From: Prochlorothrix hollandica PCC 9006 = CALU 1027
GTDB taxonomy: Bacteria > Cyanobacteriota > Cyanobacteriia > Prochlorotrichales > Prochlorotrichaceae
Length of the DNA: 32,397 bases
Assembly (NCBI RefSeq): GCF_000332315.1
Contig: NZ_KB235933.1
Coordinates: forward strand, 1,252,921-1,285,317
Reading direction: 5' to 3'
Shown here one piece after another: positions 1,527-22,341 of this stretch (positions are counted from its first letter, which is position 1; each line of letters opens with the position of its first letter). The notes under the pieces were generated by a model. It was not told the DNA's origin, did not search any database, and saw nothing but the letters and a program-made list of their open reading frames with translations. The translations under genes and the position numbers were made by a program.

Positions 1527-2522
1527 TTAACCATGACGCTGTTGGTGCCATTGCCAAGCATGGGTAACCATGAGGTTTAGGTTAGCATATTGGGGTAGCC
1601 ATCCTAGGATGGCGTGGGCCTTGGCACTGCTACCCACGAGGGCCGGAGGATCGCCGGGACGACGATCGCTCTCCACCACTGGAATCCCATGATTCGTAAT
1701 AAACCGCGCGCTGTCAATGACTTGGCGCACCGAAAAACCGTTCCCATTGCCCAAATTAAAGGTATTGGTCTCCCCCCCCGCCAATAAATACTCCAGTCCC
1801 AACAGATGGGCCTGGGCCAGGTCAGTGACATGGATATAGTCCCGCAGACAGGTACCGTCGGGGGTGTCGTAATCGGTGCCGAAAATTGTAATGGCCGATC
1901 GCTGCCCCAGGGCCGTTTGCAACACCAGGGGAATTAAATGGGTCTCAGGCTGGTGATCTTCCCCAAGGCGACCCTGGGGGTCAGCCCCTGCCGCGTTGAA
2001 ATAGCGAAAAATCACTGATTTTAGCCCATAAGCCCCTTCAAAATCCCGCAGAATCTGTTCTACCATCAACTTACTGTGACCATAGGGGTTGATGGGAGCT
2101 TGGGGATGATCCTCCGTCAGGGGTATGGCCTGGGGAACCCCATAGGTGGCACAGGTGGAGGAAAACACAAATCGGGAAATACCCGCCGCTACCATAGCTT
2201 CCAGCAGGGTCAGGGTTCCCATCACATTATTACGGTAATACTTGGCCGGATCTGTGACCGACTCCCCCACATAGGCATAGGCGGAAAAATGCATCACTGC
2301 CCCAATGGGATAGTCCTGGAACAGGCGATCGAGGAGGGTCCTGTCGCTGATATCCCCCACCACTAAGGGCACCTGTAGCACCGTCTCCACCAAGTCCCGA
2401 TGACCATAGACCAGATTATCGAGAATCACCACCGGATAACCCTGGTCCTGGAGGGCTAACACGGCATGGGAGCCAATATACCCCGCCCCACCGGTGACTA
2501 AAATGGTTGGTCGATCGTTCAT
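1527..2522 (-). CDS. galE: UDP-glucose 4-epimerase
   Basis: Extended short-chain dehydrogenase that interconverts UDP-glucose and UDP-galactose (or the GlcNAc/GalNAc pair) with bound NAD, supplying donors for the neighbouring glycosyltransferases. From the chosen ATG it has 331 residues, a normal length. The NAD-binding GGAGYIG is at residues 11-17. The active site has serine/threonine at 121-123 and the YGHSK motif with Tyr147 and Lys151. RYFNAAGADP and the RPGDPPALVGSS segment are also typical of GalE. The ATG at 2522 is preceded by AGGAGAGG at good spacing. The longer GTG/TTG-type reading upstream adds 12 unlikely residues. The gene appears intact, unlike most of its neighbours. Confidence 0.95.
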   Translation of the reverse strand: MNDRPTILVTGGAGYIGSHAVLALQDQGYPVVILDNLVYGHRDLVETVLQVPLVVGDISDRTLLDRLFQDYPIGAVMHFSAYAYVGESVTDPAKYYRNNVMGTLTLLEAMVAAGISRFVFSSTCATYGVPQAIPLTEDHPQAPINPYGHSKLMVEQILRDFEGAYGLKSVIFRYFNAAGADPQGRLGEDHQPETHLIPLVLQTALGQRSAITIFGTDYDTPDGTCLRDYIHVTDLAQAHLLGLEYLLAGGETNTFNLGNGNGFSVRQVIDSARFITNHGIPVVESDRRPGDPPALVGSSAKAHAILGWLPQYANLNLMVTHAWQWHQQRHG

Positions 2523-2524
2523 TC

Positions 2525-2713
2525 TTACCTCTCCTGCGGGCAACACCCTAGCCAGCATAGCCCACTCCCCCCCCCCGATCCGTCTGGGAACCCCAGCCTC
2601 AGAGGGTTGGGTTCTGAAGGAGTCTCTGGATCAAACTTAAGACTAGGCCAGCGTTTCGCCAATGACTCGGCCCGTTGGCGCTCCTGCTCGGCTTGCTCTG
2701 CACTCCACAACAA
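2525..2713 (-). pseudogene. Tail remnant of a Uma2-family gene
   Basis: The frame begins LWSAEQAEQERQRAESLAKR, which resembles the C-terminal coiled-coil tail seen in many cyanobacterial Uma2 proteins (compare the tail of the gene at 5724). It continues into unrelated proline/glycine-rich sequence. The nuclease-like domain is missing. The upstream edge coincides with the repeat end at 2716-2775, suggesting that insertion or deletion at this repeat removed the rest. It lies immediately upstream of galE and probably makes no functional product. Confidence 0.4.
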
Positions 2714-2715
2714 CG

Positions 2716-2775
2716 CCTAAGGTCTGTTGTCTAGAGCCTGAAACCCTCACTTTCCTGTGGTTCCCTGAATAATTA
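2716..2775. repeat. Single end of the ~280 bp MITE family
   Basis: About 60 bases closely match one end of the elements at 26122-26404 and 28097-28375. The shared stretch includes GCCTAAGGTCTGTTGTCTAG and the terminal AATAATTA. Only one terminus is present, so this is a truncated third copy. It abuts the Uma2 tail remnant at 2713. Confidence 0.8.
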
Positions 2776-2793
2776 CCTTCCCCGCCCGCCACC

Positions 2794-2809
2794 ATTAATC
2801 GAGGTGCCC
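2794..2809. repeat. Isolated terminus of the CGAGGTGCCC repeat family
   Basis: The 16 bases ATTAATCGAGGTGCCC match the ends of the short elements at 3357-3445 and 7624-7722. This terminus supplies the last codons and the TAA stop of the Uma2 gene at 2795. Confidence 0.6.
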
Positions 2810-3355
2810 GCTAAGGATTCGTTTAATATTTAAGGTGATTTCAGGAAAAGCACAAGGGGAAACAGTTCCGGTAGTTAGGGCTAAAGCTTCACAATACTGT
2901 CCATCACTTAATGCTCGAAAGACCTGAAGTTGAGAATTCTGTAAGTCTACAACCCAGTATTCTCTGATGCCTGCTTCAGCATAAATAGTCTTTTTTTCTC
3001 CTAAATCCTTGTTTAAGGTAGTTTTAGAAATCTCAATAATCAGGAAAATATTTTCAGGATAGGGATGATGGTGGAGATATTCTTGACCAAGATTTTGGAC
3101 GACAGCGATATCAGGCTCTGGTTCAGAGTTGTTGGGTAGAGTAACCGGTTTAGCATCTCGGATTTTGGCTTTGCTCCCTAACTTGAGCCGCAAGTAGTCA
3201 GCAATCTCTGTGTTGTAATAGGCATGGGATTCCCCTTCTGGTGTCATGACGACGAGATCGCCCCGGAGTAGCTCCACTGGCTCATCATTGAATAGCCCCT
3301 GCTCGATCGCTTGGTGATATTTTTGATGGGTCCATGTATAAGTCGTAAGTACCAT
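2795..3355 (-). CDS. Uma2-family (DUF820) PD-(D/E)XK-like protein
   Basis: Uma2 proteins have a restriction-endonuclease-like fold and are hugely expanded in cyanobacteria; their in vivo role is not settled. This 187-residue copy keeps the family signature: EPEPD with Asp82, the hydrophobic strand FLIIEIS with Glu108, then EKK at 120-122 and YAEAGIREYWVVDL. The ATG at 3355 is chosen because GAGGTG precedes it at five bases. A longer frame to 3430 reads through a repeat element and is rejected. Both gene edges coincide with copies of the same short repeat terminus. The last residues (SGHLD) and stop come from one of them. Confidence 0.85.
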   Translation of the reverse strand: MVLTTYTWTHQKYHQAIEQGLFNDEPVELLRGDLVVMTPEGESHAYYNTEIADYLRLKLGSKAKIRDAKPVTLPNNSEPEPDIAVVQNLGQEYLHHHPYPENIFLIIEISKTTLNKDLGEKKTIYAEAGIREYWVVDLQNSQLQVFRALSDGQYCEALALTTGTVSPCAFPEITLNIKRILSGHLD

Positions 3356-3356
3356 G

Positions 3357-3445
3357 GGGCACCTCGAAACAATCCAAATTTTTGTGGGGTGGCTCCCGCA
3401 GGAGTAAGGGTTTGGGGTGGGCCACCCCAATTAATCGAGGTACCC
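3357..3445. repeat. MITE-like element A with CGAGGT termini
   Basis: An 89-base segment has inverted ends GGGCACCTCGA and TCGAGGTACCC. The right-hand end extends as AATTAATCGAGGT, as in element B at 7624-7722. The interior is C/G-rich and partly palindromic (GGGTGG and CCACCC blocks). Its left end, read on the minus strand, is the ribosome-binding site of the Uma2 gene at 3355. Confidence 0.65.
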
Positions 3446-3459
3446 TCTAGGAAATTCCC

Positions 3460-3537
3460 GTAGGATGCGTTAGCGATAGCGTAACGCATCAAAACCTGAC
3501 TCTGCGGTGCGTTACGGCTACGCCTAACACACCCTAC
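3460..3537. repeat. GTAGGRTGYGTTAG inverted-repeat element
   Basis: A 78-base element is bounded by inverted GTAGGATGCGTTAG and GTAGGGTGTGTTAG ends. It contains two internal hairpins, at 3464-3490 (GATGCGTTA / TAACGCATC) and 3506-3533 (GGTGCGTTA / TAACACACC). Such GCGTTA hairpin repeats are common between cyanobacterial genes. This one sits just downstream of the broken GT2 gene. Confidence 0.75.
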
Positions 3538-3564
3538 AAGCTGCGTTTATTTTTTCTGTTCTAC

Positions 3565-3792
3565 TTACTTAATTTGGGAAAGTCCAAAGTTGCATTGATC
3601 TGCAAAACTGTCAAATTGGCGCTGTAAAACTCTAACCTTAGAATAAGATTGGGTAATTTCTAAAGTTCGATCGGTGCTATAGCTATCAATAATTAGAATC
3701 TGAGAAGCCCAGGTAAGCTTGGAGAGGGTTCGATCGATATTTTCTTCCTCGTTATAGGTGAGGATGAGAGGCGTAATATCAGCTAAGTTCAT
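3565..3792 (-). pseudogene. GT2 glycosyltransferase, N-terminal fragment
   Basis: The 75 residues match the start of a GT2 (GT-A fold) transferase: LILTYNEEENIDRTL, then ASQILIIDSYSTDRT with the first nucleotide-binding aspartate. Family members usually run to about 230-300 residues and contain a DxD metal site and a catalytic base, all missing here. The frame stops at 3565, and a hairpin repeat begins about 30 bases later. The 3' part was probably lost when this DNA was rearranged. Its ATG overlaps the stop of the nucleotidyltransferase-like gene as ATGA, so the two were once translationally coupled. Confidence 0.75.
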
Positions 3793-4370
3793 GGGACTTG
3801 ATAGCCAGATTCTGTGAGTGCTTTTTTTAAAGCTGGGGATACGTTTAAAACCTCTGCCCAGTGATCGAGATATATCCTATCAAGGCGATTGTTTTGCAGC
3901 TTCAGAATTCCTAAAATGTCACGCCATTGTTGTTCAGATTGGTTTTGGGATAGGTGATACCAGATAATCTTTTGGAGAATCATATCTTCAGCGCTGGAAA
4001 ACCAAAGGGTATGGTTCTGTTCATCAACGGTTAGGATTTGTCGCCGTTGAAATTGATTCTGATGAAATAAATCTAGAGCAAGGACAAAGATATCAATCTT
4101 CCATCCGGTATTATTATCGATTAAGTTAAAGGATTGTCTGCGATCGATCGCCTCTTGTATGGCAATTTCACTCACGTAAAACCGAGGCGAAAAAGCCGTG
4201 ACTAGATCCTGAAGATGGTGAGGTTGAATATCAGCGATGAGATCGAGGTCTTGGGTGTAGCGCAATTCTCCCCAAATACCACTGGCTACGGATCCACCAA
4301 TGAAGTAATCAATGCCTAGGGACTCTAGAACTGGGATGACTACCAAGGCTTCTTCAATCACACCAAGCAT
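3789..4370 (-). CDS. Nucleotidyltransferase-fold protein
   Basis: The 193 residues from the ATG at 4370 carry the polymerase-beta-like signature: FIGGSVASG, then DLDL about ten residues later, with a possible third acidic residue in KIDIF. This superfamily includes toxin-like nucleotidyltransferases (MNT, AbiEii/MenT types) and proteins annotated as DUF6036; I cannot assign the subfamily. The open frame extends to 4667 from a TTG, adding 99 plausible residues that overlap the upstream VEAKK fragment, so a longer form is possible. The gene ends in an ATGA overlap with the GT2 fragment. No antitoxin-like partner was recognised. Confidence 0.65.
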   Translation of the reverse strand: MLGVIEEALVVIPVLESLGIDYFIGGSVASGIWGELRYTQDLDLIADIQPHHLQDLVTAFSPRFYVSEIAIQEAIDRRQSFNLIDNNTGWKIDIFVLALDLFHQNQFQRRQILTVDEQNHTLWFSSAEDMILQKIIWYHLSQNQSEQQWRDILGILKLQNNRLDRIYLDHWAEVLNVSPALKKALTESGYQVP

Positions 4371-4648
4371 GGTTAGCTGTTGTGGAGGAGTCGGAACGGA
4401 GCTAGGCAGGGGGAACAAACCAACTTTTTTGAGAAAGTGAGCAACTGGATGTTGTTGTTCGAGGGAGTTGGATTGAGATTGAACAAAATGCCAGATGCTT
4501 AACCGGCTGCTATAGGTTGTATGGTTAAGATGAGCGATTTTTTGGAGTGAGTCCCACGATCGCCACAGCGCAAACAGATGGGCTTCCGCATCAGGTGTGG
4601 TATCGAGGGATTGAGTTTGATAGCACACCCTTGGCGGTCTAAACTCTC

Positions 4649-4927
4649 TCAATTCTGAGCCATCCAAACCAGATCCCGGAGCAGTCTTGCGATCGGCTGG
4701 AGGGCATAATCATTGAGGTCGATCGTTAACGTGGTCTCTTGCAATTGCAAAAAGCGCCACTGGGTTCCACTACTGACACAGCCATAGACCGTATCAATCC
4801 CTTGGCCTTGGGTTTGGTTAAAGCGCTGGGCTGCGATCATTTCGGCAGCGCACTGACCTAGCCCTAATTTTAGATCCGCTTTTTTGGCTTCCACCAAAAT
4901 GAAAACGGGAGCTTCAATTTCCAGCAA
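4649..4927 (-). pseudogene. C-terminal half of a VEAKK-family PD-(D/E)XK-like protein
   Basis: This 92-residue frame is a paralogue of the C-terminal half of the gene at 6942-7556. It shares VEAKKADLKLGLGQCAAEMI, AAQRFN, YGCVSSGTQWRFL and LNDYAL with matching spacing. The N-terminal half is gone. Immediately upstream on the minus strand the sequence becomes the C-terminus of a Uma2 gene. The only initiator is a TTG. It is probably a remnant created by recombination. Confidence 0.7.
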
Positions 4928-4930
4928 TGC

Positions 4931-4964
4931 GGGCGATCGACTGCGGAACGAGGGTGACGATGGG
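4931..4964. repeat. Duplicated Uma2 3' end, copy 1
   Basis: These 34 bases match 5065-5098 with three mismatches by eye. In the minus-strand frame they encode PIVTLVPQSIA, against PIITLIPQSIA in the Uma2 gene at 5000-5638. The 88-base repeat element at 4970-5057 lies between the two copies. Confidence 0.75.
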
Positions 4965-4969
4965 GGTCC

Positions 4970-5057
4970 ATCCCACTTTAGACGGGCCAGAGGCCCATCC
5001 TACCCAAGAGGTTGTTGTGGGATAGCCGTCTCGGCTGTCCATCTGCGAAAGTGGGAT
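4970..5057. repeat. 88-bp MITE-like element in the 3' end of a Uma2 gene
   Basis: The segment is bounded by the inverted repeats ATCCCACTTT and AAAGTGGGAT. It contains two more hairpins, GGGCC-AGA-GGCCC near 4984 and AGCCG-TCT-CGGCT near 5024. It supplies the last residues and stop of the Uma2 gene at 5000-5638 and separates the duplicated Uma2 tail at 4931-4964 from its source. Confidence 0.75.
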
Positions 5058-5638
5058 ACACCCTGGGCGATCGACTGCGGAATGAGGGTAATGATGGGTA
5101 AGTCTGGGAAAATTTGGCTACTTTGGCTGTCGGTGTAGCCTTGGTCTGAGTATAGGTAAATCTTGAGGTGATCCTTGGCATAAATCCAGACTTCAGGGAC
5201 TTGAATCGCTGCGTAGGCTTGGATGACGGTTTGAGAGGTGAGATCACATTCGATCGCCAGGTCGGGGGGTGGACATTGGCTTAAATCGAGGTTTTGGCTT
5301 GGCCGCATCAGGGCAGCATTTTGGATGTAAAAGCAGGTGTCCGGCTCTACACCAGCGATCGGGGGGCGTTTCAAGGTCGTGGAGCCAAAGTCTTCCCAGT
5401 CTCGACCCTGACATTCGAGAATCGCTTTCACAATATCAGCAATCAGGCGATTTGGTTTTTCGTGAAGGGCCAGGGGAGACATGATTTCGAGCAAACCTTG
5501 ATAGTAAGCCAGTCGGGAATGGCGGTTCTCTCCGAGGTCTTCTAGCAAACTGGTAAAGTCTGTCCAGGAGATATCTGGGATGCTTAAGTGACTGCCGGGA
5601 GCGATTTGGATCCGGGGCAGGGAAATGGTTAAGGGCAT
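5000..5638 (-). CDS. Uma2-family (DUF820) protein with altered C-terminus
   Basis: This 212-residue protein has the Uma2 layout: RLAYYQGLLEIMSPL near residue 43, VEPDTCFYI with Asp100, then PPDLAIECDLT with Glu130 and Asp132. The position where family members usually have the conserved Lys (as in DKFPIYAALGVPEVW) reads TVIQAYAAIQVPEVW, so the catalytic-type lysine seems to be lost. The final ~18 residues (VSHFRRWTAETAIPQQPLG) are encoded by the 88-base repeat element, which replaces the native end. The ATG at 5638 is preferred over a TTG three codons upstream. The gene may be translated, but a nuclease activity is doubtful. Confidence 0.75.
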   Translation of the reverse strand: MPLTISLPRIQIAPGSHLSIPDISWTDFTSLLEDLGENRHSRLAYYQGLLEIMSPLALHEKPNRLIADIVKAILECQGRDWEDFGSTTLKRPPIAGVEPDTCFYIQNAALMRPSQNLDLSQCPPPDLAIECDLTSQTVIQAYAAIQVPEVWIYAKDHLKIYLYSDQGYTDSQSSQIFPDLPIITLIPQSIAQGVSHFRRWTAETAIPQQPLG

Positions 5639-5723
5639 GGGTGACAACCCCGGTGAGGTAAGGGATGGGGAGCAATTCTGACCGGGCAGTGGGGTTATAG
5701 TGCATCAGGCATAGTGCATCAGG

Positions 5724-6443
5724 TTACAGGGCATCGGGATCAACGCCCAATTCCCGCAATTTATCGGCTAGCAGCTTAGCCCGTTGCTGGGCTTGGTCTG
5801 CCTGTTGCTGGGCTTGTTGGGCGAGTTCTTTGCCCGTGGCTAAAAGGTCTCCATCTAGGGTGGCCCAACGTAACCAGGTGGTGTTCACTCCCCGATAGGT
5901 TCCAGTCCAGCGGATGAGGGCTAGCCCTAGGGCATGACTGAGCAACCAACCCTGTTCATTGAAGGGTTTGGGTTCATATTGGCCATGGTTGAGGCTAAAC
6001 CCTGCAAAGTCTTCGGGGTTCCAGGGATCATACCAATAGTATTCACTGACCCGCATTTTATCTTGGTAAACCTGCTTTTTTTCGGTTTTATCGTATTGGG
6101 CTGTGCTTTCGGAGAGGAGTTCAATCACCACATCGGGGGCTTTTTCTTCTTGCCAGACGACCCAGGATTTCCGTTCTCGGTTGGGCACGCCGGTGACGGC
6201 GAAAAAGTCTGGCCCTTTGAAGTCCTGGGATTTAATTTGGGCTTGACTGTAATAGATAAACATATTGCCGCCAACGTAACCCTCAGCCCGTTGCTCTAGC
6301 CAACTGTCTAGACCTTCAATGAGCAAATCCATCTGCATTTTATGGCGCTGGGTTTCCATGGTTTGGTTATCGTCGGAAGGAAGTTGGTCTTGGCCGGGTA
6401 GGAGGAGTTCGGCTTCGGGGGGGGGAGACAGGAGGGTGGCCAT
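5724..6443 (-). CDS. Uma2-family (DUF820) protein with coiled-coil tail
   Basis: The 239-residue protein belongs to the longer Uma2 subgroup. The core shows GNMFIYYS, FKGPDFFAV (acidic residue 1), APDVVIELLSEST (acidic residue 2), DKTEKKQVYQ (lysine) and VSEYYWYDP. The tail is Gln/Ala/Leu-rich (AQQAQQQADQAQQRAKLLAD) and ends RELGVDPDAL, a very common cyanobacterial ending. All catalytic-type residues are present, so this is the most complete Uma2 copy here. Function in vivo is unknown. DUF29 lies just upstream, about 20 bases away. Confidence 0.9.
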   Translation of the reverse strand: MATLLSPPPEAELLLPGQDQLPSDDNQTMETQRHKMQMDLLIEGLDSWLEQRAEGYVGGNMFIYYSQAQIKSQDFKGPDFFAVTGVPNRERKSWVVWQEEKAPDVVIELLSESTAQYDKTEKKQVYQDKMRVSEYYWYDPWNPEDFAGFSLNHGQYEPKPFNEQGWLLSHALGLALIRWTGTYRGVNTTWLRWATLDGDLLATGKELAQQAQQQADQAQQRAKLLADKLRELGVDPDAL

Positions 6444-10098: not shown

Positions 10099-11346
10099 GG
10101 CTCTCCGTAACTTATGGTGATAAGTTTATCTAATGAGAGAAGGCAGCTAGAGTTCTGGAGCGGAAGTTTTCAAAATTCAAAAAGCCGTAAGCCTGCCTTT
10201 TAATTAACTTAATTCGATTGTTAATACCTTCCATAGTACCGCTTGTCGTTCTACTAATAAAGTAGTTACAAATTCCTTCGAGGTGATTACGAATGGTTTT
10301 TATAACTTTACCATATACAGACCGGGCTTTCAGAAGCCATTGTGTGAACCTCTCTTTACCCTCTTCAATCGTTGTACTAGTTTCGTATATGCCCCTAAAC
10401 TCTTCTTTTAATTGATATGCCAGATCTAAACGCTCTGAAAGAGCTAAAATTTCCGTCAGTTTCACTTCTTCTTTCTCTGTCAAGTCTTCTCGATTCTTGA
10501 GGAGAATAAACTTGACTCCTTTATCTGTTGCTCCCACCTGTGTACGAATCTTATTTAATTCCATATTTACAGGTTTCATTACATGAAATCGGTCAATGAC
10601 AATTTTGGCATTAGGAAAGACTTCTTCCACAACTTTTGGGAAACCACCCCACATATCTACACTCACCTCCTCAATTTGCTCCCGAACCTCAACTGGTTGC
10701 TGCATAAGGGTTTCAATGATATCCTCTTGTTTGTGACTGTTGATCATTTCGATCAGTTTGCCCTGATCAATATCTGCCACTACAGTGACAAAATCTTTAT
10801 GGCCTTTGCGTTGACTAATCTCATCAATACTTAGTCGTTTCACATTACCCCAGGTTTCTGTTTTTTTTTGATCCCTTTGATGGTTAAAAATCCCTTGGAT
10901 CTGGGTAAAACTCAGGTTTTCCTCTCGCCCGACTTGTGTGATATTTGAACTCTGCACCCGCTTATAAATATATTCTTCGTAGCGTCGAGTATATCGGCGC
11001 TCCCAGTCCGCAAAATGTAGATCCTCTGTAAAGTAACGCTGGCAATCAGAGCAGTAGAACTGACGACGAGGAGTCCTGAGATAAACTGGTTGACCAAAGA
11101 CTGGTAAATCTCGCATTAAGATGGGGCGGTTTTGATGAATATCGGCAGTCTGTGTGCCGCAGTGAGGACAGCTACTCTCTTCAGTCAATAGCCGCAATGT
11201 TAGATAAACTTCATTATTTTGATAAGCACAAGTCTCAACCGTAACTCCTGGTATATTTAGAAGATTATCTAGATGAAAAGCCATGGTAAGCATCCCCTGC
11301 TAAATGTATCGCTCTATACAGTTTACACCAAGATCATCGGAGAGCC
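10099..11346 (-). mobile_element. Complete ISL3-family insertion sequence
   Basis: The element is 1248 bases and is bounded by imperfect inverted repeats. The inward readings start GGCTCTCCG at both ends and share TGGTG further in. It contains one intact transposase gene. ISL3 elements normally duplicate 8 bases, but the flanks (TGAATTTT on the left, ATCTCTTC on the right) do not match. The gene on each side is truncated at the junction. The element may therefore mark a recombination or deletion joint rather than a simple insertion. Confidence 0.9.
10130..11284 (-). CDS. tnpA: ISL3 family transposase
   Basis: DDE transposase of 384 residues that cuts and pastes its element by recognising the terminal repeats. 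An N-terminal zinc-finger region has CPHC (Cys39/Cys42) and CSDC (Cys78/Cys81). The catalytic core has SIDE with Asp154, VSVDMWGGF with Asp210, the family block DRFHVMK, and TMEGINNRIK with Glu352. All three acidic residues are present and the frame is unbroken, so it may be active. The ATG at 11284 is chosen over a start three codons earlier by comparison with typical ISL3 N-termini (MAFHLDNLL). Confidence 0.95.
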   Translation of the reverse strand: MAFHLDNLLNIPGVTVETCAYQNNEVYLTLRLLTEESSCPHCGTQTADIHQNRPILMRDLPVFGQPVYLRTPRRQFYCSDCQRYFTEDLHFADWERRYTRRYEEYIYKRVQSSNITQVGREENLSFTQIQGIFNHQRDQKKTETWGNVKRLSIDEISQRKGHKDFVTVVADIDQGKLIEMINSHKQEDIIETLMQQPVEVREQIEEVSVDMWGGFPKVVEEVFPNAKIVIDRFHVMKPVNMELNKIRTQVGATDKGVKFILLKNREDLTEKEEVKLTEILALSERLDLAYQLKEEFRGIYETSTTIEEGKERFTQWLLKARSVYGKVIKTIRNHLEGICNYFISRTTSGTMEGINNRIKLIKRQAYGFLNFENFRSRTLAAFSH

Positions 11347-13931
11347 ATCTCTTCATGGGGGGCGATCGGGCCGTGGGCCAAGGGGCTTCCCGATCGACCC
11401 GTGCCCTGGGGGGGGACAGCCTCAGCCTCCGGGCCAGCTACACCGACAACCCCAATTTCCAGGCCCAAGTGCAGTATGAGTACCGCAACAGCAGCGGTAG
11501 CCAAACCTCCAATGTGTCTGCCTCCCTCATGGGTAAGCTGTCCCCCTCGTTGACGGCGTTGTTTGATGCCGATCGCCGCTTTGCGTCCGGCAGCGCCAGC
11601 CGGGGCTTACCCGCCACCACCCAGGTGCGCCTAGGTCTGGCCTATCGCAATCCCTACAGCGATCGCTTTAATGCCCTGTTGCGCTACGAATATCGCCAAA
11701 ATCCCAGCACCACCCCCGAAAGTCTCCTGGATGGCAGCGGGGTGGGCACCACGGAACACCTGTTTGCCGGGGAAGCCATCTATTCCCCCAACTGGCAGTG
11801 GGAGTTCTACACCAAGCTGGGCTTCCGCCAGTCCACCCTGAACCTGGCAGACAGCTTCACCGCCAGCAGCACCGTTACCCTGGCCCAAATCCGGGCCACC
11901 TACCAGGTCAACCGCCGCTTCGACCTGACCGGGGAAGCCCGCTGGATTGGGCAACCCAGCGCTGGCTACAGTGAAATGGGCTGGGTGGGGGAAGTGGGCT
12001 TCCATGCCACCTCCAATTTGCGCCTTGCCCTAGGCTATAGCTCCGGCAGCATTAATAACGATCGGGACTTCAGCGGCAGTCGATCCGCCGGGGGCATCTA
12101 TGGGGGCGTGACCCTGAAGCTGGATCGCCTGTTCCAGGGCTTCGGTCTCCAGCAGCCCCTGGCCCAAACCCAACCCCGTCGCCAACTGACGGCCCAGGAT
12201 CCCAACCAACCCACCCCGGCCCAACTCCAAGCCGCCGCCCCCAGCCCTCCCCTGCGGCTCCAGGTCTCCCAGGCGGTGGAATTCACCCCCAACAGCGCCG
12301 TCATGTCCCCGGAAGGCCGGGTGGTGTTGGATAGTCTGGCCACGGTCATGGGGCAATATGGCGACCTGAAGCTGGACATGGAGGCCGTGCTACCCCCCTT
12401 GGCGGAGTTGACCCCGGACAACCTGGAGGCGCGGCAATTGCAGGCGGCTCGCCAGTATCTCCTCAGCCGAGGGGTGGCGGGCGATCGCATTACCATCCGC
12501 GCCCTCAACACGTCCGCCGCAGCCACGGGCAACACCCCGGTGACCTTTGCCCTCAAGGGACCCACCACCACCTTCCAACTGCTGTCGTCCCAATTGGGCA
12601 GCGGCTTAGTGGGCAGTCTCCTGGGCCAAGAACTGCCCCAACTGGCCAACCTGCCCCGCCCCAGTGCTGCCCCTGGCACCCCCACCGCTGCCCCCGCCTC
12701 AACGGCGATCGCCGCCCCGGCAGCGACCCCCGCCCTCCCCAATCTCTTGGCCCTGGTGAATGGGGTGGCTATACCCCTGGATCAGGTGCCCTTGGATGGG
12801 GCCGAACCCAGCCCGGTGCGCCTGCCCCTGTTGCCCCCCCCCGCTGACGACCTGCAAGCCGCGATGCCGAGAATCACGGGTCAGTTTGGATCCCTAGCCC
12901 AAGCGGCGGTGCCCAACGGCATCACCCTGGCCCAGGGCAACCCCGATCGACCGGGCATCACCCCGATCGGCCTCAGTCTGAACCCCGATCGGGCCTTCTG
13001 GCAAGCCTTCGTCGATGCCGCCACCCCCCTACGCACCGCCCAACGCTTGGATAACCCAGCCAATGGGGGAGAAACCCCCGACACCCGGGTGTCGGCAGTG
13101 CCCAACCCCTCGCTCTCGGCTACTGGCCAAGGCTCGGATCCTGGGATCACCGCGATCGCCAGGGACACCGAGCAACGCCTGAGCGTTGTCCCCCGTGCTG
13201 AGCTGGGGGATGCCCAGGGCAGCACCTCGATCTGGAGCATTGGCCAACTCCTGGGCAGCAGCCTGGGAGAACTGGCTCCCCAGCCTACCCTGACGGGCTT
13301 GAACCCCACGGCCCTGCGCCTGTCCCTGGTGCCCAGCCTGGGAGCGATGCCCGCCCCAACCCTCACCGCTGAACCCACAACGGCCCTGGATCTGGCCCAA
13401 GCCCCCACCGCAACCCCTGGCTTTAGCCCCACCTTACCCAGCACCGCCGGGAGACCCGACTCCATCGCCCTTTGGCAGACCCTGAGCCTGTGGCAAGCCC
13501 TGGCCCTCAATACGGAAGAGGCCACGCCCGACACCTTCGCCCTCAATACTGAAAACGAGACCCCCGACACCTTCGCCCTCAATACTGAAGGGACCCCGGA
13601 CAATACCCTAGCCACGGGTAACACCACGAACCCAGACAACACCACAGCCCTCAACCTGGCGGTGGATCGGGCCTTCTGGCGGGCCATGGCCGAGGCAACC
13701 ACTCCCCTCCGCACCGCCCAACGGCCCACGGCTAACCCCAATGGCTTCGACATCAGCCTCATGGAAGCCCGCCGCCTAGAAGCTGCCCTCACCTTCCTCC
13801 TCAGCCGCGACCTCAACGCCCTGGATGCCCTGCTCCAGGCTTCCGGCACCCAAGCGCCGGAGATTCGAGGGGAACTCATCGATCTTGATGCGTTGATGCA
13901 ACAGAACCAAGCAGGGGAGGGAGCCTTATGA
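11304..13931 (+). CDS. Outer-membrane beta-barrel/OmpA-like protein, 5'-truncated
   Basis: The first 14 codons come from the IS end; native sequence starts at 11347, and the true N-terminus and signal peptide are missing. Residues ~30-290 are rows of alternating polar/aromatic segments (VQYEYRNSSG, LGLAYRNPYSDRFNALLRYEYR, WEFYTKLGFRQ) closing with GGVTLKLDRLF, as expected of an outer-membrane beta-barrel. Next comes an OmpA-like stretch (VEFTPNSAVMSPEGRVVLDSL, then RQYLLSRGVAGDRI). The rest is Pro/Ala/Thr-rich, with a repeated motif DRAFW-A-TPLRTAQR at ~12983 and ~13663 and three copies of FALNTE or LALNTE. Its stop overlaps the next ATG (ATGA), so it is co-translated with the beta-helix gene. 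Probably a cell-envelope assembly or adhesin scaffold protein. Confidence 0.7.
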   Translation: MYRSIQFTPRSSESHLFMGGDRAVGQGASRSTRALGGDSLSLRASYTDNPNFQAQVQYEYRNSSGSQTSNVSASLMGKLSPSLTALFDADRRFASGSASRGLPATTQVRLGLAYRNPYSDRFNALLRYEYRQNPSTTPESLLDGSGVGTTEHLFAGEAIYSPNWQWEFYTKLGFRQSTLNLADSFTASSTVTLAQIRATYQVNRRFDLTGEARWIGQPSAGYSEMGWVGEVGFHATSNLRLALGYSSGSINNDRDFSGSRSAGGIYGGVTLKLDRLFQGFGLQQPLAQTQPRRQLTAQDPNQPTPAQLQAAAPSPPLRLQVSQAVEFTPNSAVMSPEGRVVLDSLATVMGQYGDLKLDMEAVLPPLAELTPDNLEARQLQAARQYLLSRGVAGDRITIRALNTSAAATGNTPVTFALKGPTTTFQLLSSQLGSGLVGSLLGQELPQLANLPRPSAAPGTPTAAPASTAIAAPAATPALPNLLALVNGVAIPLDQVPLDGAEPSPVRLPLLPPPADDLQAAMPRITGQFGSLAQAAVPNGITLAQGNPDRPGITPIGLSLNPDRAFWQAFVDAATPLRTAQRLDNPANGGETPDTRVSAVPNPSLSATGQGSDPGITAIARDTEQRLSVVPRAELGDAQGSTSIWSIGQLLGSSLGELAPQPTLTGLNPTALRLSLVPSLGAMPAPTLTAEPTTALDLAQAPTATPGFSPTLPSTAGRPDSIALWQTLSLWQALALNTEEATPDTFALNTENETPDTFALNTEGTPDNTLATGNTTNPDNTTALNLAVDRAFWRAMAEATTPLRTAQRPTANPNGFDISLMEARRLEAALTFLLSRDLNALDALLQASGTQAPEIRGELIDLDALMQQNQAGEGAL

Positions 13932-16555
13932 AGACCTTAATGCACCAGGGAGCGATCGCCAGAGCCGTGAGTCCCTCCGGATCCCAGGGCGTAGTCCGGA
14001 AATCCCGACGACGGGGGGCTATCGCCCTTTCCCTGGGCTGGACCCTAGGACTGGGATCCGCCGGTCTGGCCGCCGAGATTCCCCTGCGATCGGCCAACCC
14101 CCAGACCTACACCATCCAGGTCAACAGTAGCCAGGATGGGGCGATCGCCCCCGATGCCGCCCTGACCCTACGGGAAGCCATCGCCCTGACCAACGGCGAT
14201 CTCAGCCTGGGGGATCTGTCCACCGCTGAACAGGCCCAGATCCAACCCCTCAGCCCCGGTAGCCCCTCCCAGATCACCTTTGCCTTGTCCACCGATGCTC
14301 CCCAGATCCTAGAACTCCACAGCCCCCTGCCCCCCCTGCGCCAGTCCGGTTTAATCCTGGATGGCCTGGGGGAAAAATCCCCGGCAAACTCCCCGCGCCT
14401 GATCCTGCGACCCGCCCAGATCAACACCATTCCCTGGGGCTTGCTGGTGTTGGCCAACGACATCACCATCCGGGGCTTGGGCTTCCAGGGCTTCCACAGC
14501 GCCGATCCCAACCTCTATCCCTTTGTGGGCAATGTGGTGGTGACCACGGGGCAAATGCTCTATGACCTGGGGCATTTGGCCGATGTGGTGCAGTTGGATC
14601 CCCCCCGCAACCTGCTGCTGGAGGACAACCAGTTTGGCACCGTTCCCCAGGGCGATCGCCCCCGGCCTGCCTCCGCCTTTGGGGTGGTCATTTTTGACGG
14701 CCTTGGCACCACCCTGCGCCATAATCAGTTTCTCTACCACAGCGGCAGTGCCCTGTTGACGGGGAAGGTGGCCCGATCGACCACGGTGCTGGATAACTTG
14801 TTTGTGGGCAATGGGGGGGCAGAATTGGCGGATGCCCTGCGCCTGGAGGGATCCATTGGCGACAGCACCATGGTGGGCAATACCTTTTGCCACAACCGGG
14901 GCCAGGGGATTTACCTGTTTAAGCCGGAGGGGGCGATCGCCGTGGAAAATAATCTCTTCTATGGCAATGGCAGCGCCAGCGGCACGGGCAACGGCACCCC
15001 CGCCCAGGATGCCGCCGTTTACCTGATGGGTTCGGGCCATCGGGTGCTGGACAATCGTATTGTGAACCAGGGGGGTCCGGGCATTGCGATCGCGGGCTAT
15101 CCCCGCAGTGTGGGCAACCGGCTCCAGGGCAACACCTTTGCCCAGGTGCAGGGGCTGAGCATTGATCTGGTGACCCGCCGCGACACGGGTTTCCACAGCC
15201 TCCGGGGGGGCGATGGACCCAACCCCCCCCGCAATTCCCACAACCGCCGCCTGGATACGGGCAATGGGGCGGTGCTGGCTCCCCAGTTTGTGGGGCTGGA
15301 GTTTTTCCCCCTGGGCGATCGGGTGCGGGTGTCGGGGACGGCAGATCCGGGGGCGACGGTGGATCTCTACCGGGTGTTGGAACCGGGGCAAGCCTTCGGT
15401 CCCCTCAATGAACTGTGGGTCAGCACCACCGCCGATGGGGAGGGACGGTTTACGGTGGATCTGGTGACCTGGGAACTGGGCGATCGCCTGTCGGCCATAG
15501 CCACGGATCCCGTTGACGGCACCTCGGAACCGGCTGAAAATGCCGTGATTCGCGATTTTTCGCCCCGCCCTCTGCCAGGAGGGGCCACCATGACTCGCAC
15601 ACCCTTCGATCAGTTTGCCAAGCAATTCCTAGAAGAACTGCTCACCCCCTATGGCCAAGTGGAAATTAGCCGTGAAATTCCCGGTGAACCGCGCTTCATT
15701 GACCTCTGGTTTAGCCCTAGCCCCGCTTCCCAGCCCAGGGTCCCAGATTTGGGGTTACTCGGCCAAATAATCCAAACCCCCTGCCTCCTAGAACCCTACC
15801 GCAACCCGCCGGATCCACCGGAAATCAATAGTTGCTTGCTCAAGCGCTTTTGGCTTGTGGCGGACTGCTACCGCCAAAATCAAGCCGATCGCCTCCCCCA
15901 ACTCTGGGTTATCACCCCCACGGCCCCCCCGGCCCTGCTGGCCAGCCTGGGGGCAATTCCTAGCCCTGACCATCCGCCTGGTATTTATCGCACCCCCAGT
16001 GCCCTTGGCACCCAGATTCTGGCCGTTCATCAGCTTGATCCCACCCCCGAAACCCTATGGCTGCGCCTCCTCGGTCGTGGTTCGGTGCAACGGCAAGCCA
16101 TTGGGGAAGTTCTGGCTTTACCCCCCAGCAATCTACGCTTCCAGGCTCTGCGCCTCTTGGTAAACTGGAAAATTACAGTAGACACCACCAACATCCTGCA
16201 AACAGAAGAGGAGGCTAATCTGATGGCATGGTCCCAAGCACTATTAGACCTTGAAGCGCAACTGCGGGCAGAAGGCCGCCAAGAAGGCCGCCAAGAAGGC
16301 CGCCAAGAAGGCCGCCAAGAAGGTCGCCAGGAAGGTCGCCAGGAAGGATTTCGGGAGGGGCTGCGAGAGACGCTCCAGAATTTGTTTTTGGCGCGATTTG
16401 GTGCGGTGGATGGGATATTAGAGGCCACGATCGATCGCATCCTCACCCTCTCCCCCGAAACCTATACCCAGATCTTTCCCCAACTGCTCACCCTCTCTGC
16501 GGCGGAACTCGCGGAACGAGTGACCCAACTTTCTGACCCAATCTCCCTGGACTAA
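13928..16555 (+). CDS. Secreted beta-helix protein fused to an EGRQ-repeat PD-(D/E)XK-like protein
   Basis: One uninterrupted 875-codon frame. Residues 1-50 form a signal peptide with RRR, a hydrophobic core and GLAAE. Residues ~55-470 are a right-handed beta-helix with repeated N-x-F/I rungs (LEDNQFG, LRHNQFLY, LDNLFVGN, VGNTFCHN, VENNLFYGN, LDNRIVNQ). A short Ig-like segment follows (VRVSGTADPGATVDLY). At residue 555 a second protein starts with MTRTPFDQFAKQFLEELLTPYG, a cytoplasmic family common in cyanobacteria and often annotated DUF4351/Rpn-like, with IDLWFSP and LLEPYRNPP. Six EGRQ repeats follow, then a helical tail. AGGAGG stands 7 bases before codon 555, so the second half can also be made alone. 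Reading through would export a cytoplasmic-type domain. Confidence 0.75.
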   Translation: MKTLMHQGAIARAVSPSGSQGVVRKSRRRGAIALSLGWTLGLGSAGLAAEIPLRSANPQTYTIQVNSSQDGAIAPDAALTLREAIALTNGDLSLGDLSTAEQAQIQPLSPGSPSQITFALSTDAPQILELHSPLPPLRQSGLILDGLGEKSPANSPRLILRPAQINTIPWGLLVLANDITIRGLGFQGFHSADPNLYPFVGNVVVTTGQMLYDLGHLADVVQLDPPRNLLLEDNQFGTVPQGDRPRPASAFGVVIFDGLGTTLRHNQFLYHSGSALLTGKVARSTTVLDNLFVGNGGAELADALRLEGSIGDSTMVGNTFCHNRGQGIYLFKPEGAIAVENNLFYGNGSASGTGNGTPAQDAAVYLMGSGHRVLDNRIVNQGGPGIAIAGYPRSVGNRLQGNTFAQVQGLSIDLVTRRDTGFHSLRGGDGPNPPRNSHNRRLDTGNGAVLAPQFVGLEFFPLGDRVRVSGTADPGATVDLYRVLEPGQAFGPLNELWVSTTADGEGRFTVDLVTWELGDRLSAIATDPVDGTSEPAENAVIRDFSPRPLPGGATMTRTPFDQFAKQFLEELLTPYGQVEISREIPGEPRFIDLWFSPSPASQPRVPDLGLLGQIIQTPCLLEPYRNPPDPPEINSCLLKRFWLVADCYRQNQADRLPQLWVITPTAPPALLASLGAIPSPDHPPGIYRTPSALGTQILAVHQLDPTPETLWLRLLGRGSVQRQAIGEVLALPPSNLRFQALRLLVNWKITVDTTNILQTEEEANLMAWSQALLDLEAQLRAEGRQEGRQEGRQEGRQEGRQEGRQEGFREGLRETLQNLFLARFGAVDGILEATIDRILTLSPETYTQIFPQLLTLSAAELAERVTQLSDPISLD
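15590..16555 (+). CDS. Probable internal translation product: EGRQ-repeat PD-(D/E)XK-like protein
   Basis: The in-frame ATG at 15590 is preceded by AGGAGGGGCC, a strong ribosome-binding site, and starts exactly where free-standing homologues start (MTRTP-DQFAKQ-LEELL). The product would have 321 residues. Conserved features are RFIDLWFSP, LLGQIIQTPCLLEPYRNPP, CLLKRFWLVADCYR, PQLWVITPTAP, TLWLRLLGRGSVQRQAIGEVLAL and a C-terminal helical bundle after the EGRQ repeats. Members are often annotated as Rpn-like nuclease or DUF4351 proteins, with activity mostly unproven. I cannot see a clear catalytic lysine. Confidence 0.6.
   Translation: MTRTPFDQFAKQFLEELLTPYGQVEISREIPGEPRFIDLWFSPSPASQPRVPDLGLLGQIIQTPCLLEPYRNPPDPPEINSCLLKRFWLVADCYRQNQADRLPQLWVITPTAPPALLASLGAIPSPDHPPGIYRTPSALGTQILAVHQLDPTPETLWLRLLGRGSVQRQAIGEVLALPPSNLRFQALRLLVNWKITVDTTNILQTEEEANLMAWSQALLDLEAQLRAEGRQEGRQEGRQEGRQEGRQEGRQEGFREGLRETLQNLFLARFGAVDGILEATIDRILTLSPETYTQIFPQLLTLSAAELAERVTQLSDPISLD
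16271..16342 (+). repeat. Six 12-bp coding repeats (EGRQ)
   Basis: Six tandem units of GAAGGCCGCCAA encode EGRQ. The last two units differ at the third codon positions (GGTCGCCAG), so the first four are the more recent expansions. The alternating charge would give a flexible or helical linker. Confidence 0.95.
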
Positions 16556-16637: not shown

Positions 16638-17636
16638 ATGGCATCGCGTAAACCCTCTCCTCCTGCCCATCCCTGGTTTATTCTCTGGTTTCTGGCCCTG
16701 TGGACCCGTATCCAGACCGTTTTGCGTTGGACGATCGCAACTCCGGGCTGGTTAGGGCGGTGGGTGCTGCGGGGGGGACAGGGGGCGATCGAGGCGGGCC
16801 TGCGCCCCTATCTCCACAGTGTTCGGCAGACCCGCCAGCGACAACGGGAGCGCCGCAGACGCTGGTGGCGCAAAAATGGGCCTTTGAAGCCGATCGATCA
16901 GCTTCTGGGTCTGTGGGGCATCCGTCCCGTTGAATGGCGACGGTGGTTGAAGCGATCGAGCCTGTTTCTGTTTACCTGCGTCTTTACCCTACTCTTTACG
17001 GGGATTCTGGGTTGGTTTTTGCTCCCCGCTGGTGCAGCAGATCCCGGCAATGTGGTCTTTGTGAAGCGGATTACGGCGGTGAATACGACCGATATCACGG
17101 GCTTTGTCGAGGATGCCACGACTAACGACAATGAACCCGACTGGCCTAGCCCTAATACCACCTATTTGCGAGGAGAAATTGGGAATACTGGACTACCCAA
17201 CGGAGGCGTGCAACCCGGCGATGAACTGGAATACACCATCTATTTCCTCTCCAACGGCGGTTCTGACGTGCGGGATGTGAAATTCTGTGACCTGATCCCA
17301 GCGAATACAACCTATGTCACTGGCAGTATGCGCTTGGGCTATGACGCGACCAACACAACCTTGCCTGATCCGAGCGGGACAGGAACAGTCCTAACCGATG
17401 CCGATGATGCACCGACTGATGGTGCTGTGTTCTATGCAGGGGGTACTACGCCACCCACTATTTGTACCAACGCTAATGCCAACGGTGGTAACGACAACGA
17501 TCCCAGCACCAATGACACGGGTGCTGCCTTTGTCCAGATCGTTGATGCTGCCACCCCTATGCCCGCTGCCACGGGAGCAGGAACGCCCATCAGCTCCTAT
17601 GGCTTTGTGCGCTTCCGGGTCAAAGTAGTGGATTAA
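16638..17636 (+). CDS. Membrane-anchored DUF11-like surface protein
   Basis: A 332-residue protein. Residues 1-110 are unusually Trp/Arg-rich (RQRQRERRRRWWRKNG, EWRRWLKR) with one hydrophobic stretch near 12-32. A strong membrane segment lies at about 112-130 (LFLFTCVFTLLFTGILGWF), followed by PAGAADPG, a possible cleavage site. From ~137 the exported domain begins NVVFVKRITAV and includes ELEYTIYFLSNGG, VKFCDLIP, a second cysteine in PTICTN and a final FVRFRVKVVD. The same module ends the giant protein at 22341. DUF11-type domains are Ig-like and occur in adhesins and cell-wall proteins. The two cysteines may form a disulfide. The N-terminal basic extension is not a standard signal peptide. 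Confidence 0.7.
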   Translation: MASRKPSPPAHPWFILWFLALWTRIQTVLRWTIATPGWLGRWVLRGGQGAIEAGLRPYLHSVRQTRQRQRERRRRWWRKNGPLKPIDQLLGLWGIRPVEWRRWLKRSSLFLFTCVFTLLFTGILGWFLLPAGAADPGNVVFVKRITAVNTTDITGFVEDATTNDNEPDWPSPNTTYLRGEIGNTGLPNGGVQPGDELEYTIYFLSNGGSDVRDVKFCDLIPANTTYVTGSMRLGYDATNTTLPDPSGTGTVLTDADDAPTDGAVFYAGGTTPPTICTNANANGGNDNDPSTNDTGAAFVQIVDAATPMPAATGAGTPISSYGFVRFRVKVVD

Positions 17637-17710: not shown

Positions 17711-20182
17711 ATGAGTGACAACAACACGATCGATCGCCAACCGTCGCCAGCCTCAGGATCCTGGAGTGCTGGAGCATCAGCCATCCAACCCTGTCCCGGG
17801 GATCGCCGGGGCTGGTGGACCCAGGTGCAACGCAAAACCATCGCAGTCCTGGCTCCAGGGCTGCTGCTAGGGGCACAGTTCTGTCTCGATCGTCGCCCCG
17901 CCTTCGCCCAAACTGCACCGGGCACCCTCATCGAAAACACCGCTACCGGTAGCTTCATCGACACCGCCACCTCAACGGAAAAAACCCTCACCTCTAACAC
18001 CGTAACCGTCCAAGTGCTGGAAGTAGCGGGCATTGGGGTCACGGCCCAGACCCCCATAGAGGCTAACCTTGGGGAAGCAGAGGCCATCTTAGGGACGGGT
18101 AACGCAGGGGACTATCAGGGCTTTGATGGGGTTAATACCGGGGACTTAATCTTCTTTGACTTTGTGGTGAAAAACCTAGGCAACGATCCCACCGCGTTTT
18201 TCATCCCCCTCCAGCCATTTAGTGTAACGGGGGCCACCTTTAACGCAACAGCCCCGATCCAGATCATTGCCATGGACCCCGATGGTGCGGGCATAGGCTA
18301 CAGCGCTGTGACGGATTTTGATGGGGTGGGCACCCAAAATAGTATCAACGTCACCACGGCAGGGCTAACCACAACCCTACTAGAAGCCCCCAATGGTTAT
18401 ATTCCAGCAGGTGGAACTGTTACGGTGCGGGTTCCGGTCATTGTCACCGAAACAACCCTTACTAATCCCATTAAAGTGGTTTTAGGCAACACGACGCCGG
18501 TGGGTGACCAAAACCAGGTCTATAGTGCCGGTACCCATGATCTTTATACCCAAGATCTCAGCAATAGCACCCCTAATCCCTACACCAGTCCCACCAGCAC
18601 GACACCGGAAGCAGACGGATCCCCTGTTGCCGAAAAAGAAGCCAGTGCCGAAGGATCGACACCCTTAACAGCAGCCTATGCCTTAAACGGCTATAAATCC
18701 GCCAAACTCACCACTGATATCAACAGTGATGGCACCGTCAATGAAGGGGAGACGGTGACCTGGACAGTGACCTATGTGAACACAGGCAGTGGGGATATTA
18801 CCAACCTGCAAATCACCGACAATTTAGCCACCCTGGCAACCCCCGGCACCACCTTTGCCGGTCCCTTAACGATTACGCCCAACCCCAATCCTTTAGCAGG
18901 GGGCAATCCCACGGCCAACCCTAGCTATGATGGCAATACAGACAGCAATGCCAACCCCACCGACATTAACCTGTTTGCCAGTGGCATTACCTTGAAACCG
19001 GGGGAAGTGGTGACAGTGGCCATTCCGGTGACGATCGCCAATCTGATCCCCGATACCCGCACGGAGTCCAACCAAGCCAGCGCCACGGGCCTAAAAAATG
19101 GGGGTGCTGCCCTGACAGCAGTCCTCACCGACAATGTGGATGATGTACCCGCCGAAACTCTGCCCACCAATGTCACCATTCCCGCCAGCAGTATTACCCA
19201 AACCGAAAATACAACCTCCATCGATCCCACGACGCTGGATGTGGTCACAGGAGTCACCCTGGTTTTAGGCGATCACGGGGATGCCCCTAACACCTACGGC
19301 ACCAACACGGCGGTCCACACCGGCACCGGATCAACCCTTTACCTGGGATCGGTGCAGCCGGATACAGAAACCGGCCCTTCTACGCCCCTCAATGGCAGCG
19401 GGGATGATGGGACGGGCACCGACGAGGAAGCCGTCACCACATTTCCCATCCTCAACACCACTGGCGGAGCCACCTATAGCGTTCTGGTCAATGCCTCTAA
19501 TACCAGCGGCAGTAATGCTTATCTGGCGGGCTACATCGACTTTAACGGGGATGGGGACTTTAACGATACCAATGAGCAGTCCGCCACGGTGACCGTGCCC
19601 AATGCCGCCAGCAACCCCCAGGGCTTTTTGGTCACCTTCACCACCCCGGCGGCGGGCATGACCGCTGGCAGCACCTACGCCCGTTTCCGCCTCAGCAGCA
19701 CCCAAAGCGAAGTGCAATCCCCCACCGCCGCCGCCAGCAGCGGGGAAATTGAAGACTACCCCCTCGCCATCACCGCTGATAACCGGGACTATGGGGACGC
19801 GATCGACACCGGATCTGGAACCGCATCCGGCAACTACCAAACCACCGCAGCGGATGGGGGACCCAGCCACGGCATTGTGGCCGGACTGCTCCTGGGAACC
19901 GCGATCGATGCCGATGATGGCACCTTGCAAAATAACGGAGCCAACGCCGACGATGCCAACAATGTTATGATGATGAAGATGGGGTTGGTAGTTTTTCAAC
20001 CTTGGAGGCGATCGGAGATCCAACCTATAACATCAAAACTTCGGTCACCAATTCCACGGCGAGTGCTGCCTATGTGGTGGGATATATTGACTTTAACCGG
20101 GATGGGGATTTTGGCGACAGCGGTGAGAAAAGCGCCACGGTCACGGTTACAGCCAACAGCGGCACCGCCGACCAAACCTTAA
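17711..20182 (+). pseudogene. N-terminal part of a giant DUF11/GEVED surface protein (frameshifted)
   Basis: Starts with a long signal region: basic RRGWWTQVQRK, a hydrophobic core and cleavage after PAFA near residue 66. Then come DUF11-like Ig domains (TGDLIFFDFVVKNLGNDPTAF near 140; ETVTWTVTYVNTGSGDITNLQITD near 350). A GEVED domain at ~520-692 has DHGDAPNTYG, AGYIDFNGDGDFND and SGEIEDYPLAI. A second GEVED repeat begins RDYGDAIDTG near 695. At 19966/19967 one G is missing, so the frame leaves the domain after NANDANN-like sequence and reads unrelated residues to 20182. Restoring it gives one protein of 1543 residues ending at 22341. GEVED and DUF11 domains are known from secreted bacterial surface proteins. 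Confidence 0.8.
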
Positions 20183-22341
20183 GTTTCACCACGCCATCGG
20201 GGATTACCACCGGCACAACCTACGTCCGCATTCGTTTGGCTTCTGTGCAAGGGGAAGCAGAAGTGTCCACAGGGGCCGCCACTGCCGGGGAAGTGGAGGA
20301 CTATCCCATCACCATTTTGCCCAATCTAGTCGGCACAGGGCCGCAGTTTACCTGCGATGCCACTTTAAAGTTGGTCACAGGTGCCTCAGGCACAAGTTCA
20401 AGCTTGCATCAAATCAATCGGGGCGATCTCTTTCCCGACCTCAGCGATCCCACAGCCTTTGAATTTGTCAAGACTAAAGTTCTCACAAACAGCCAAACCT
20501 ATTCCATCAATGCCCTAGCCTATAATCCCGTTGATAATTATCTGTATGGGGTGATTATTCAACCGAACTCTGGAGCCAATAGTAATATCGTGAAAGGAGG
20601 GATTGTCCAAATTGACTCCACTGGCAACGTTAGCTTTTTAGGAATCCCTGTCAAAGCAGATGGCACAGCTTCCCTGGTGGCTGATGATGATGATGACTTG
20701 CAAGCTCGGAATAACTTCATCGCAGGTAATAACCAGGGCTATCCAGCCGGTACGTTTTTGTTGGATGGAACCTATGTAGTCATGGCAGAGGAAGGGAATG
20801 ATCGCAACCAGGTTCCTATTTACTTACTGGATGTGACCACTAGCCCTCCCCAATATGACTACAAGGGAACGATCTCGGGACCGTTCTTCGATGACTTCGC
20901 CGTCAATCCCCAAGACACCACACCGAATCGAGTTTACGGTATCGATGATCAGACCGATCGCTTAGTCTATTTTTCCGTCGATCCGTTAAGTGCCTCAGTC
21001 ACCAACGCCACCAGCGGCACCACCAGCGACACGGAATTCACCCGCAACTATGGTTCTCAATTTTTTGACAGCTTTGGCCGGATGCTTTTCCGCACCGGGG
21101 ATTCCCCCAATAATTTATATATCCTCAACGGCACCACTGGAACCGCGACTTCCTTGCTCACGGGTCCCAGTGGTGGTCGCCATGATGGCACCTCTTGTAA
21201 CAGTGTGGAACTCGAAAAAGCCGTCAACCCAACGACCGTTGCTGCGGGTAGCACGGTCACCTATACCTATCGCATTGCTAACAGTCGCCTCACCCCCATT
21301 ACCCTCACCTTTGAAGACAGTTTAGCCAGCGTTAATAATTTCCCTGGCACTGCCCGCAATGAAAGCACCACCCCCGTGAAAGGCACATTTACGGGAGTAT
21401 TCCCCAGCCCCCCTAGCGGTGGTAGCATTTCCCTTTTGGATAGCAACAGAACCCTACGCATTTCGTCCTTAACTGTACCGGCCCAAAGCATTATTAGCTT
21501 TTCCGCAGATGTGTTAATTGATCCCACCATCGCGATCGATCCCGGCGGTGACCCCGATGGCGACACCAATAATGACAAGACCCCCTATTTTAACCAAGCA
21601 GAACTCACCGGTCTGCCCAGTCCCCTTCCCGCCTCGGTTCTGTCCGATGACTTCACCACAGATTTAGCCGCAGACCCCACCATCATCACCATCACCCCCG
21701 CCACCGCCACCACCCCAGAACTGCTCCTGGTGAAGCGCATCACAGCTTGGCTCCCTGGGAATGGTAGCCCCAGCACAAGCTATACCAGCTTTGTGGATGA
21801 TGGCATCGCCAACAATGGAGATAATGATTCCGGTTGGCCCGGTGCCAGTGGCGGGACAAACACCTACACCCTGGGGGTAACGGGTTTAGAGGCTAGTCCC
21901 GGCGATACGGTGGAATACACCATCTATTTCCTCAATACGGGGAATGGACCGGCAACGAATGTCAAGATCTGCGATCGGCTCTCGCCCTACCTCACCTATA
22001 TACCCACTACCTACGGCATCGCCCCTGATTATGGCATCCGCCTGGTTTTTGGCAATGGCAGCGATACTCGCAGTCTCACAGGGTCCAATGATGGGGACTT
22101 GGGGCAATTGGTTGGGGCAGGGGTCGATTTAACGGGCACCTGCAAGTTTCTCAATGACAAGGGTACATCTACCCCTGATGATGACACAGTGGATGATGTA
22201 GGTGCAGTCCAAAACGTGAATGGGGTTGTGTTAGTCACGCCCACGGGTGGGTCTTCGCCCAGCCAACTGGAGGTTTCAACGGGCGCGGGAACCCCCAACA
22301 CGTCCTATGGTTATATTCGGTTCCGGGCGACGGTGAAGTAA
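19967..22341 (+). pseudogene. C-terminal part of the giant DUF11/GEVED surface protein
   Basis: This frame continues the second GEVED repeat (DDEDGVGSFSTLEAIGDP, VGYIDFNRDGDFGD, AGEVEDYPITI). A ~300-residue region follows that resembles a DUF6923/beta-propeller-like domain (NALAYNPVDNYLYGVI, GTFLLDGTYVVMAEEG). Then come a DUF11-like domain (VAAGSTVTYTYRIANSR) and the terminal module LLLVKRITAW ... DTVEYTIYFLNTG, VKICDRLS, TGTCKF, YGYIRFRATVK. It has no ribosome site; the first TTG at 20002 is only the start of the open frame. Separation from the upstream part is most simply a one-base deletion or a sequencing error. Expression of this part alone would lack a signal peptide. Confidence 0.8.

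Follow-up and report, generated by a model that had tools for sequence, protein, structure and literature searches.

Does the long open reading frame at positions 13928-16555 of this DNA encode a single protein that is made as such, or two genes that share a frame? The window, i.e., the whole stretch of 32,397 nucleotides of Prochlorothrix hollandica DNA that was analyzed, contains in this place (plus strand) 875 sense codons, with no internal stop in either half. The first part of the frame reads as a beta-helix protein, and the second as a cytoplasmic-type protein with EGRQ repeats. A preliminary description, made from the sequence alone, offered two readings of this arrangement: one locus may give two proteins in different locations, or a stop codon may have been lost by accident. 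The comparisons reported here support the second of these readings better than the first.

The two parts of the frame

At its start, the frame overlaps the preceding ORF (11304-13931) by ATGA. The ATG at 15590 forms its codon 555, and 321 residues remain from there; these values, given earlier, were confirmed on the sequence. Residues 1-554 (13928-15589, plus strand) begin with a basic and hydrophobic stretch that by inspection is predicted to be signal-peptide-like. They match the beta-helix family PF13229 with an E-value of 9.8e-10, contain a Big_6-like domain at residues 466-537 that scores below its cut-off, and end at TSEPAENAVIRD. These matches bear out the earlier assignment to the beta-helix proteins.

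Homologues from many Cyanobacteriia align across residues ~40-545 at 38-46% identity, and the order of the operon is the same in the window and in these relatives. Past residue ~545, most homologues continue with a proline-rich linker and then an OmpA domain. Shorter beta-helix forms without OmpA occur in about eight loci, where they end 12-43 residues past a conserved TSEP motif. The beta-helix and the Ig-like C-terminal domain that ends near TSEP are both present in the window, whereas the C-terminal OmpA domain, which is common in the relatives but not defining, is absent. A second difference from the cyanobacterial beta-helix/OmpA proteins is the extra, unrelated gene in frame behind the window's protein. 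Counted from the T of TSEP, the tail up to the ATG is 23 residues long, and the short forms have tails of 16-47 residues by the same counting. Because this tail falls within the range of the short forms, and because the second part's homologues begin at the position of the ATG, the boundary drawn by the preliminary description is right, as is its judgment that the beta-helix region comes to a natural-looking end. The junction (15546-15589, plus strand), delimited by the tails of the relatives and by a deletion simulation (see below), comprises ~12 codons without homology; in the fused form the sequence spanning it is RDFSPRPLPGGATMTR.

The second part (15590-16555, plus strand) is a DUF4351-related EGRQ-repeat protein of 321 residues. 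It shares the N-terminus MTR.P.DQFAK and full-length similarity with its family, at 38-53% identity and with alignments from residue 1; the window's copy begins with MTRTPFDQ. In nearly all of the matches listed, the alignment begins at residue 1-5, and of 17 genes inspected, nearly all have an ATG, GTG, or TTG start codon at the same point, with little or no open frame upstream. The statement that this protein elsewhere starts exactly at this position thus agrees with the family. In the family alignment, every invariant residue is retained in the second half of the frame, which fits a recent fusion or the continued use of the short form.

The AGGAGG motif that had been noted before the ATG is present at 15577-15582 (plus strand), seven nucleotides upstream of 15590. 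However, Shine-Dalgarno-like matches of at least 6 nt, located 4-12 nt upstream, also precede 4 of the 112 in-frame ATGs inside the window's genes (~3-4%), so the motif by itself is weak evidence for an internal start, and we dropped it as proof of one. One of these four ATGs is at 16223-16225 (plus strand), within the second part, where AGGAGG lies 8 nt upstream; homology gives no support for 16223 as a start. Judged from sequence comparison, the start at 15590 is fixed by homology and not by the Shine-Dalgarno motif. A scan for promoters and terminators between 11200 and 17800 returned matches at chance level only. The third-position GC content (GC3) is ~0.77 in the two genes that precede 15590, which encode the beta-helix protein and a barrel-type outer-membrane protein, and ~0.60 in the EGRQ gene. 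The change is located at the boundary, which fits two genes with different histories.

Cyanobacterial DUF4351-type proteins with EGRQ or QGxQ repeats are often annotated as Rpn-like or DUF4351 proteins. The window's copy resembles them in length, start, and invariant residues, and putatively in a PD-(D/E)XK-like fold. Pfam DUF4351 matches the C-terminus of 10 of the 19 aligned relatives, whereas the window's copy has no significant match to it at E 0.01 and, unlike the relatives, has a beta-helix gene in frame before it. The single Pfam match of the 321-residue part itself is weak and driven by the repeats. A structure model calculated with nine sequences (mean pLDDT 71) has the order alpha-beta-beta-beta-alpha-beta in residues 5-109 of the 321-residue part, where the conserved D38 adjoins the strand 40-43 and E68, likewise conserved, is on the strand 65-69. 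In a second structural comparison, the top matches of the N-terminal region were 2vld (Z 9.1, rmsd 3.0, 104 residues aligned) and 5gke (Z 8.4). Further matches were Can2, Card1, and XisH; the best ones are repair and restriction-type nucleases. A Foldseek search gave nothing significant (best E-value 0.24), and a sequence search of solved structures with the family profile gave no match. The label PD-(D/E)XK nuclease-like is thus reasonable for the second part, with moderate support from the structural comparison, but not proven. We found no publication on DUF4351 in cyanobacteria in the literature searched.

Occurrence of the fusion in other genomes

The comparison set consisted of 390 Cyanobacteriia genomes, in each of which the two to five top candidates were scored. 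Homologues of the second part with an E-value of 1e-22 or better were present in 90 of the 390 genomes, and none of those listed in the other 89 genomes is joined to a beta-helix. The ~150 homologues listed have open frames of 222-439 amino acids; the window's own stands alone at 888. When the full 875-residue protein was compared with the 390 genomes, as the preliminary description had suggested, 189 contained one part or the other; among the matches listed, none elsewhere spans both. A peptide-pattern scan of the genome contig collection found nine loci, with the second part alone in all of them and no fusion. The same fusion was not found in viral contigs. A homologue in the genome with the handle G167 lies in an open frame of 1009 amino acids; this candidate was rejected, as that frame results only from reading through a TAG, and the gene begins right behind it.

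These searches indicate that, among the genomes examined, the fusion is unique to this one. The two genes are separate in the relatives, and in the relatives examined they are not even neighbors, which is a stronger separation than the preliminary description had envisaged as evidence against its proposal. The taxonomic order to which the window's genome belongs is represented by one genome in the comparison set, so that the comparison is with more distant relatives and the ancestral junction is not directly visible. As a side observation on the family, the EGRQ/DUF4351-family gene is repeated in tandem at 1975-5915 of locus L096 in genome G327, in at least four copies, which indicates that the family expands locally.

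The operon and its damage

In the neighborhoods of the relatives, a barrel-type gene of ~1200-1300 codons usually precedes the beta-helix gene, and DUF11-type genes follow it in most. The window shows the same setting, a barrel gene immediately before the beta-helix gene and DUF11 genes behind it, with the extra gene between. Where the barrel and beta-helix genes meet, they overlap by ATGA, in the window as well as in 12 of 21 relatives. None of the operon neighborhoods compared from the relatives contains the EGRQ gene, which marks it as an intruder in the operon.

The operon is damaged on both sides of the fused frame. The barrel-type gene (11304-13931, plus strand) is a C-terminal remainder that lacks ~900-1000 N-terminal residues of its relatives, and a search of the whole 5.6-Mb assembly recovered the missing 5' part nowhere. 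An ISL3-type insertion sequence (10102-11349, plus strand; transposase at 10130-11293 on the minus strand) lies at the point of truncation, and homology to barrel proteins begins ~20 nt past its end. Elsewhere in the genome, copies of this element are flanked by 8-bp target duplications, e.g., GCTTCCAC, AAACAAAA, and TAATGTTT, whereas the copy at 10102-11349 has none. The truncated gene and the element without a duplication point to the removal of the 5' end of the operon by an IS-associated rearrangement, or to an assembly misjoin; this 5' end would carry the signal peptide and promoter region of the operon. Downstream, a DUF11-type gene (16638-17636, plus strand) is followed by a large DUF11/GEVED gene (17711-22341, plus strand) that is split into ORFs 17711-20182 and 20002-22341. 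The alignment with a single homologous protein from locus L129 runs in frame 2 as far as 19963 and resumes in frame 1 at 19969, so the large gene is frameshifted in this interval.

Three further observations concern these genes and their genome. The consecutive overlapping ORFs 11304-13931 and 13928-16555 are identical in length, at 875 amino acids each, which is apparently a coincidence. At its C-terminus, the barrel remainder is extended by a long segment that includes a degenerate OmpA-like stretch (residues ~317-416), and the beta-helix gene of the window is without OmpA; in locus L129, the barrel gene is extended similarly, and the beta-helix gene there has OmpA as well. For a cyanobacterium, the genome has few matches to the phycobilisome family PF00502: four in all, of which one is strong.

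Origin and meaning of the fusion

We simulated single-base changes before the ATG at 15590. At 44 of the 50 positions tested, a one-base deletion causes the beta-helix frame to end at a TGA at 15591, which overlaps the ATG; after a one-base insertion, the frame runs to a TAG at 15667. The fused state is thus one base away from the ATGA arrangement of the preceding junction. This argument is only about one-in-three specific, because the second part begins with M-T and ATGA is therefore built in.

Overlaps of the four nucleotides ATGA are known from translationally coupled gene pairs (reviewed in PMC12548453; for the dependence on distance, see PMC10666635). The previous junction of the operon, at 13928, and those of the 12 relatives are of that kind, with the Shine-Dalgarno sequence inside the upstream gene. 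The junction at 15590 has the Shine-Dalgarno motif, the ATG, and an out-of-frame TGA; however, the upstream frame misses this TGA; without a stop, termination-reinitiation does not take place, and the ribosome continues. In the separation of the genes in relatives and the old second start kept inside, the case is the same as other fusions in which adjacent co-directional genes were joined through stop loss or a frameshift. We see no special difference from these, except for the truncation of the operon by an insertion sequence and its downstream frameshift.

We consider it likely, with a probability of roughly 0.78, that two adjacent genes were fused accidentally by a recent one-base indel or the loss of a stop codon, through mutation or sequence error. 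In this lineage, a DUF4351-related gene for a cytoplasmic-type protein would have entered the operon of barrel, beta-helix, and DUF11 genes. This EGRQ gene most likely lay close behind the beta-helix gene before the fusion arose, possibly in an ATGA overlap, with its Shine-Dalgarno sequence inside the first gene. The loss of a stop or an indel of one base within the ~12 codons before 15590, either a real mutation or a draft error, would then have joined the frames; substitution of the stop codon is an equally possible route. Initiation at 15590, aided by the Shine-Dalgarno motif and by translation from upstream, may still yield the 321-residue protein, which is probably made from its own start. 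Ribosomes from 13928 would run on and produce some 875-residue chain, whose nuclease-like half may be exported or degraded. A point against accidental fusion is that both halves are free of stops and the second keeps all residues invariant in its family, so that, as far as the sequence allows judgment, neither half appears to be far decayed.

Within the accidental reading, the fusion may be confined to the assembly, with the genes separated by a stop in the living strain, for example in an ATGA overlap. The normal arrangement is one base away, the assembly is a gapped draft with gaps of 100 N at IS copies, and another frameshift of the single-base type lies ~4 kb downstream in a gene with intact homologues. 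However, the data examined contain no sign of a read-level problem at 15546-15589, and the frameshifts may be real in a genome as rich in pseudogenes as this one: a published draft of Prochlorothrix hollandica (5.5 Mb, 54.6% GC) has 515 pseudogenes, which are 12% of its genes (PMC5069947); two drafts of the species, AJTX02 and GCF_000332315.1, are named in that paper. We regard an error as possible but somewhat doubtful; mutation and sequence error are not distinguishable from the sequence examined.

The anatomy given in the preliminary description, namely an exported beta-helix part, a nuclease-like part, and a retained internal start, was supported; its proposal of two proteins in different locations gained no comparative support. 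Under that proposal, the locus would be under selection to give an 875-residue product, exported or bound to the surface with its nuclease domain, together with a cytoplasmic form of 321 residues from 15590. The open frame, the internal start kept with AGGAGG at a good distance, the intact family residues in the second half, and the signal-like N-terminus in the first (by inspection) are compatible with it. However, the arrangement is confined to one of the genomes examined, the operon that carries it has lost its 5' end and is frameshifted downstream, motifs like AGGAGG precede internal ATGs by chance at the rate given above, and no exported members of the EGRQ family are among those seen. 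Signs of selection on the 875-residue form were absent from the data examined. We therefore consider a selected dual product very unlikely, and we think just as little of a recent, real fusion in which one mRNA yields both an exported beta-helix-nuclease chimera and, through the retained internal start, a cytoplasmic nuclease-like protein. Also very unlikely is that the secreted fusion alone is functional, with the nuclease-like domain replacing OmpA and acting outside the cell like a surface nuclease or a contact-type toxin, and with the internal start as a leftover. Most relatives do have an OmpA domain at exactly this place, and the window's gene has none; however, the short forms show that OmpA can be lacking naturally, so a replacement is not needed. 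The next gene is of the DUF11 type, no immunity-like gene lies behind, and no other genome examined has the fusion. Contact-dependent toxicity was set aside for lack of such a gene and of relatives with that architecture.

An annotation that takes 13928-16555 at face value would call it a secreted nuclease chimera. As the locus is better read as two ordinary genes sharing a frame in a damaged operon, 15590 should remain annotated as a start. Should the fusion be real, it would be a fresh gene fusion caught before the old start decayed, and it may help in a modest way to study how closely spaced genes become fused.
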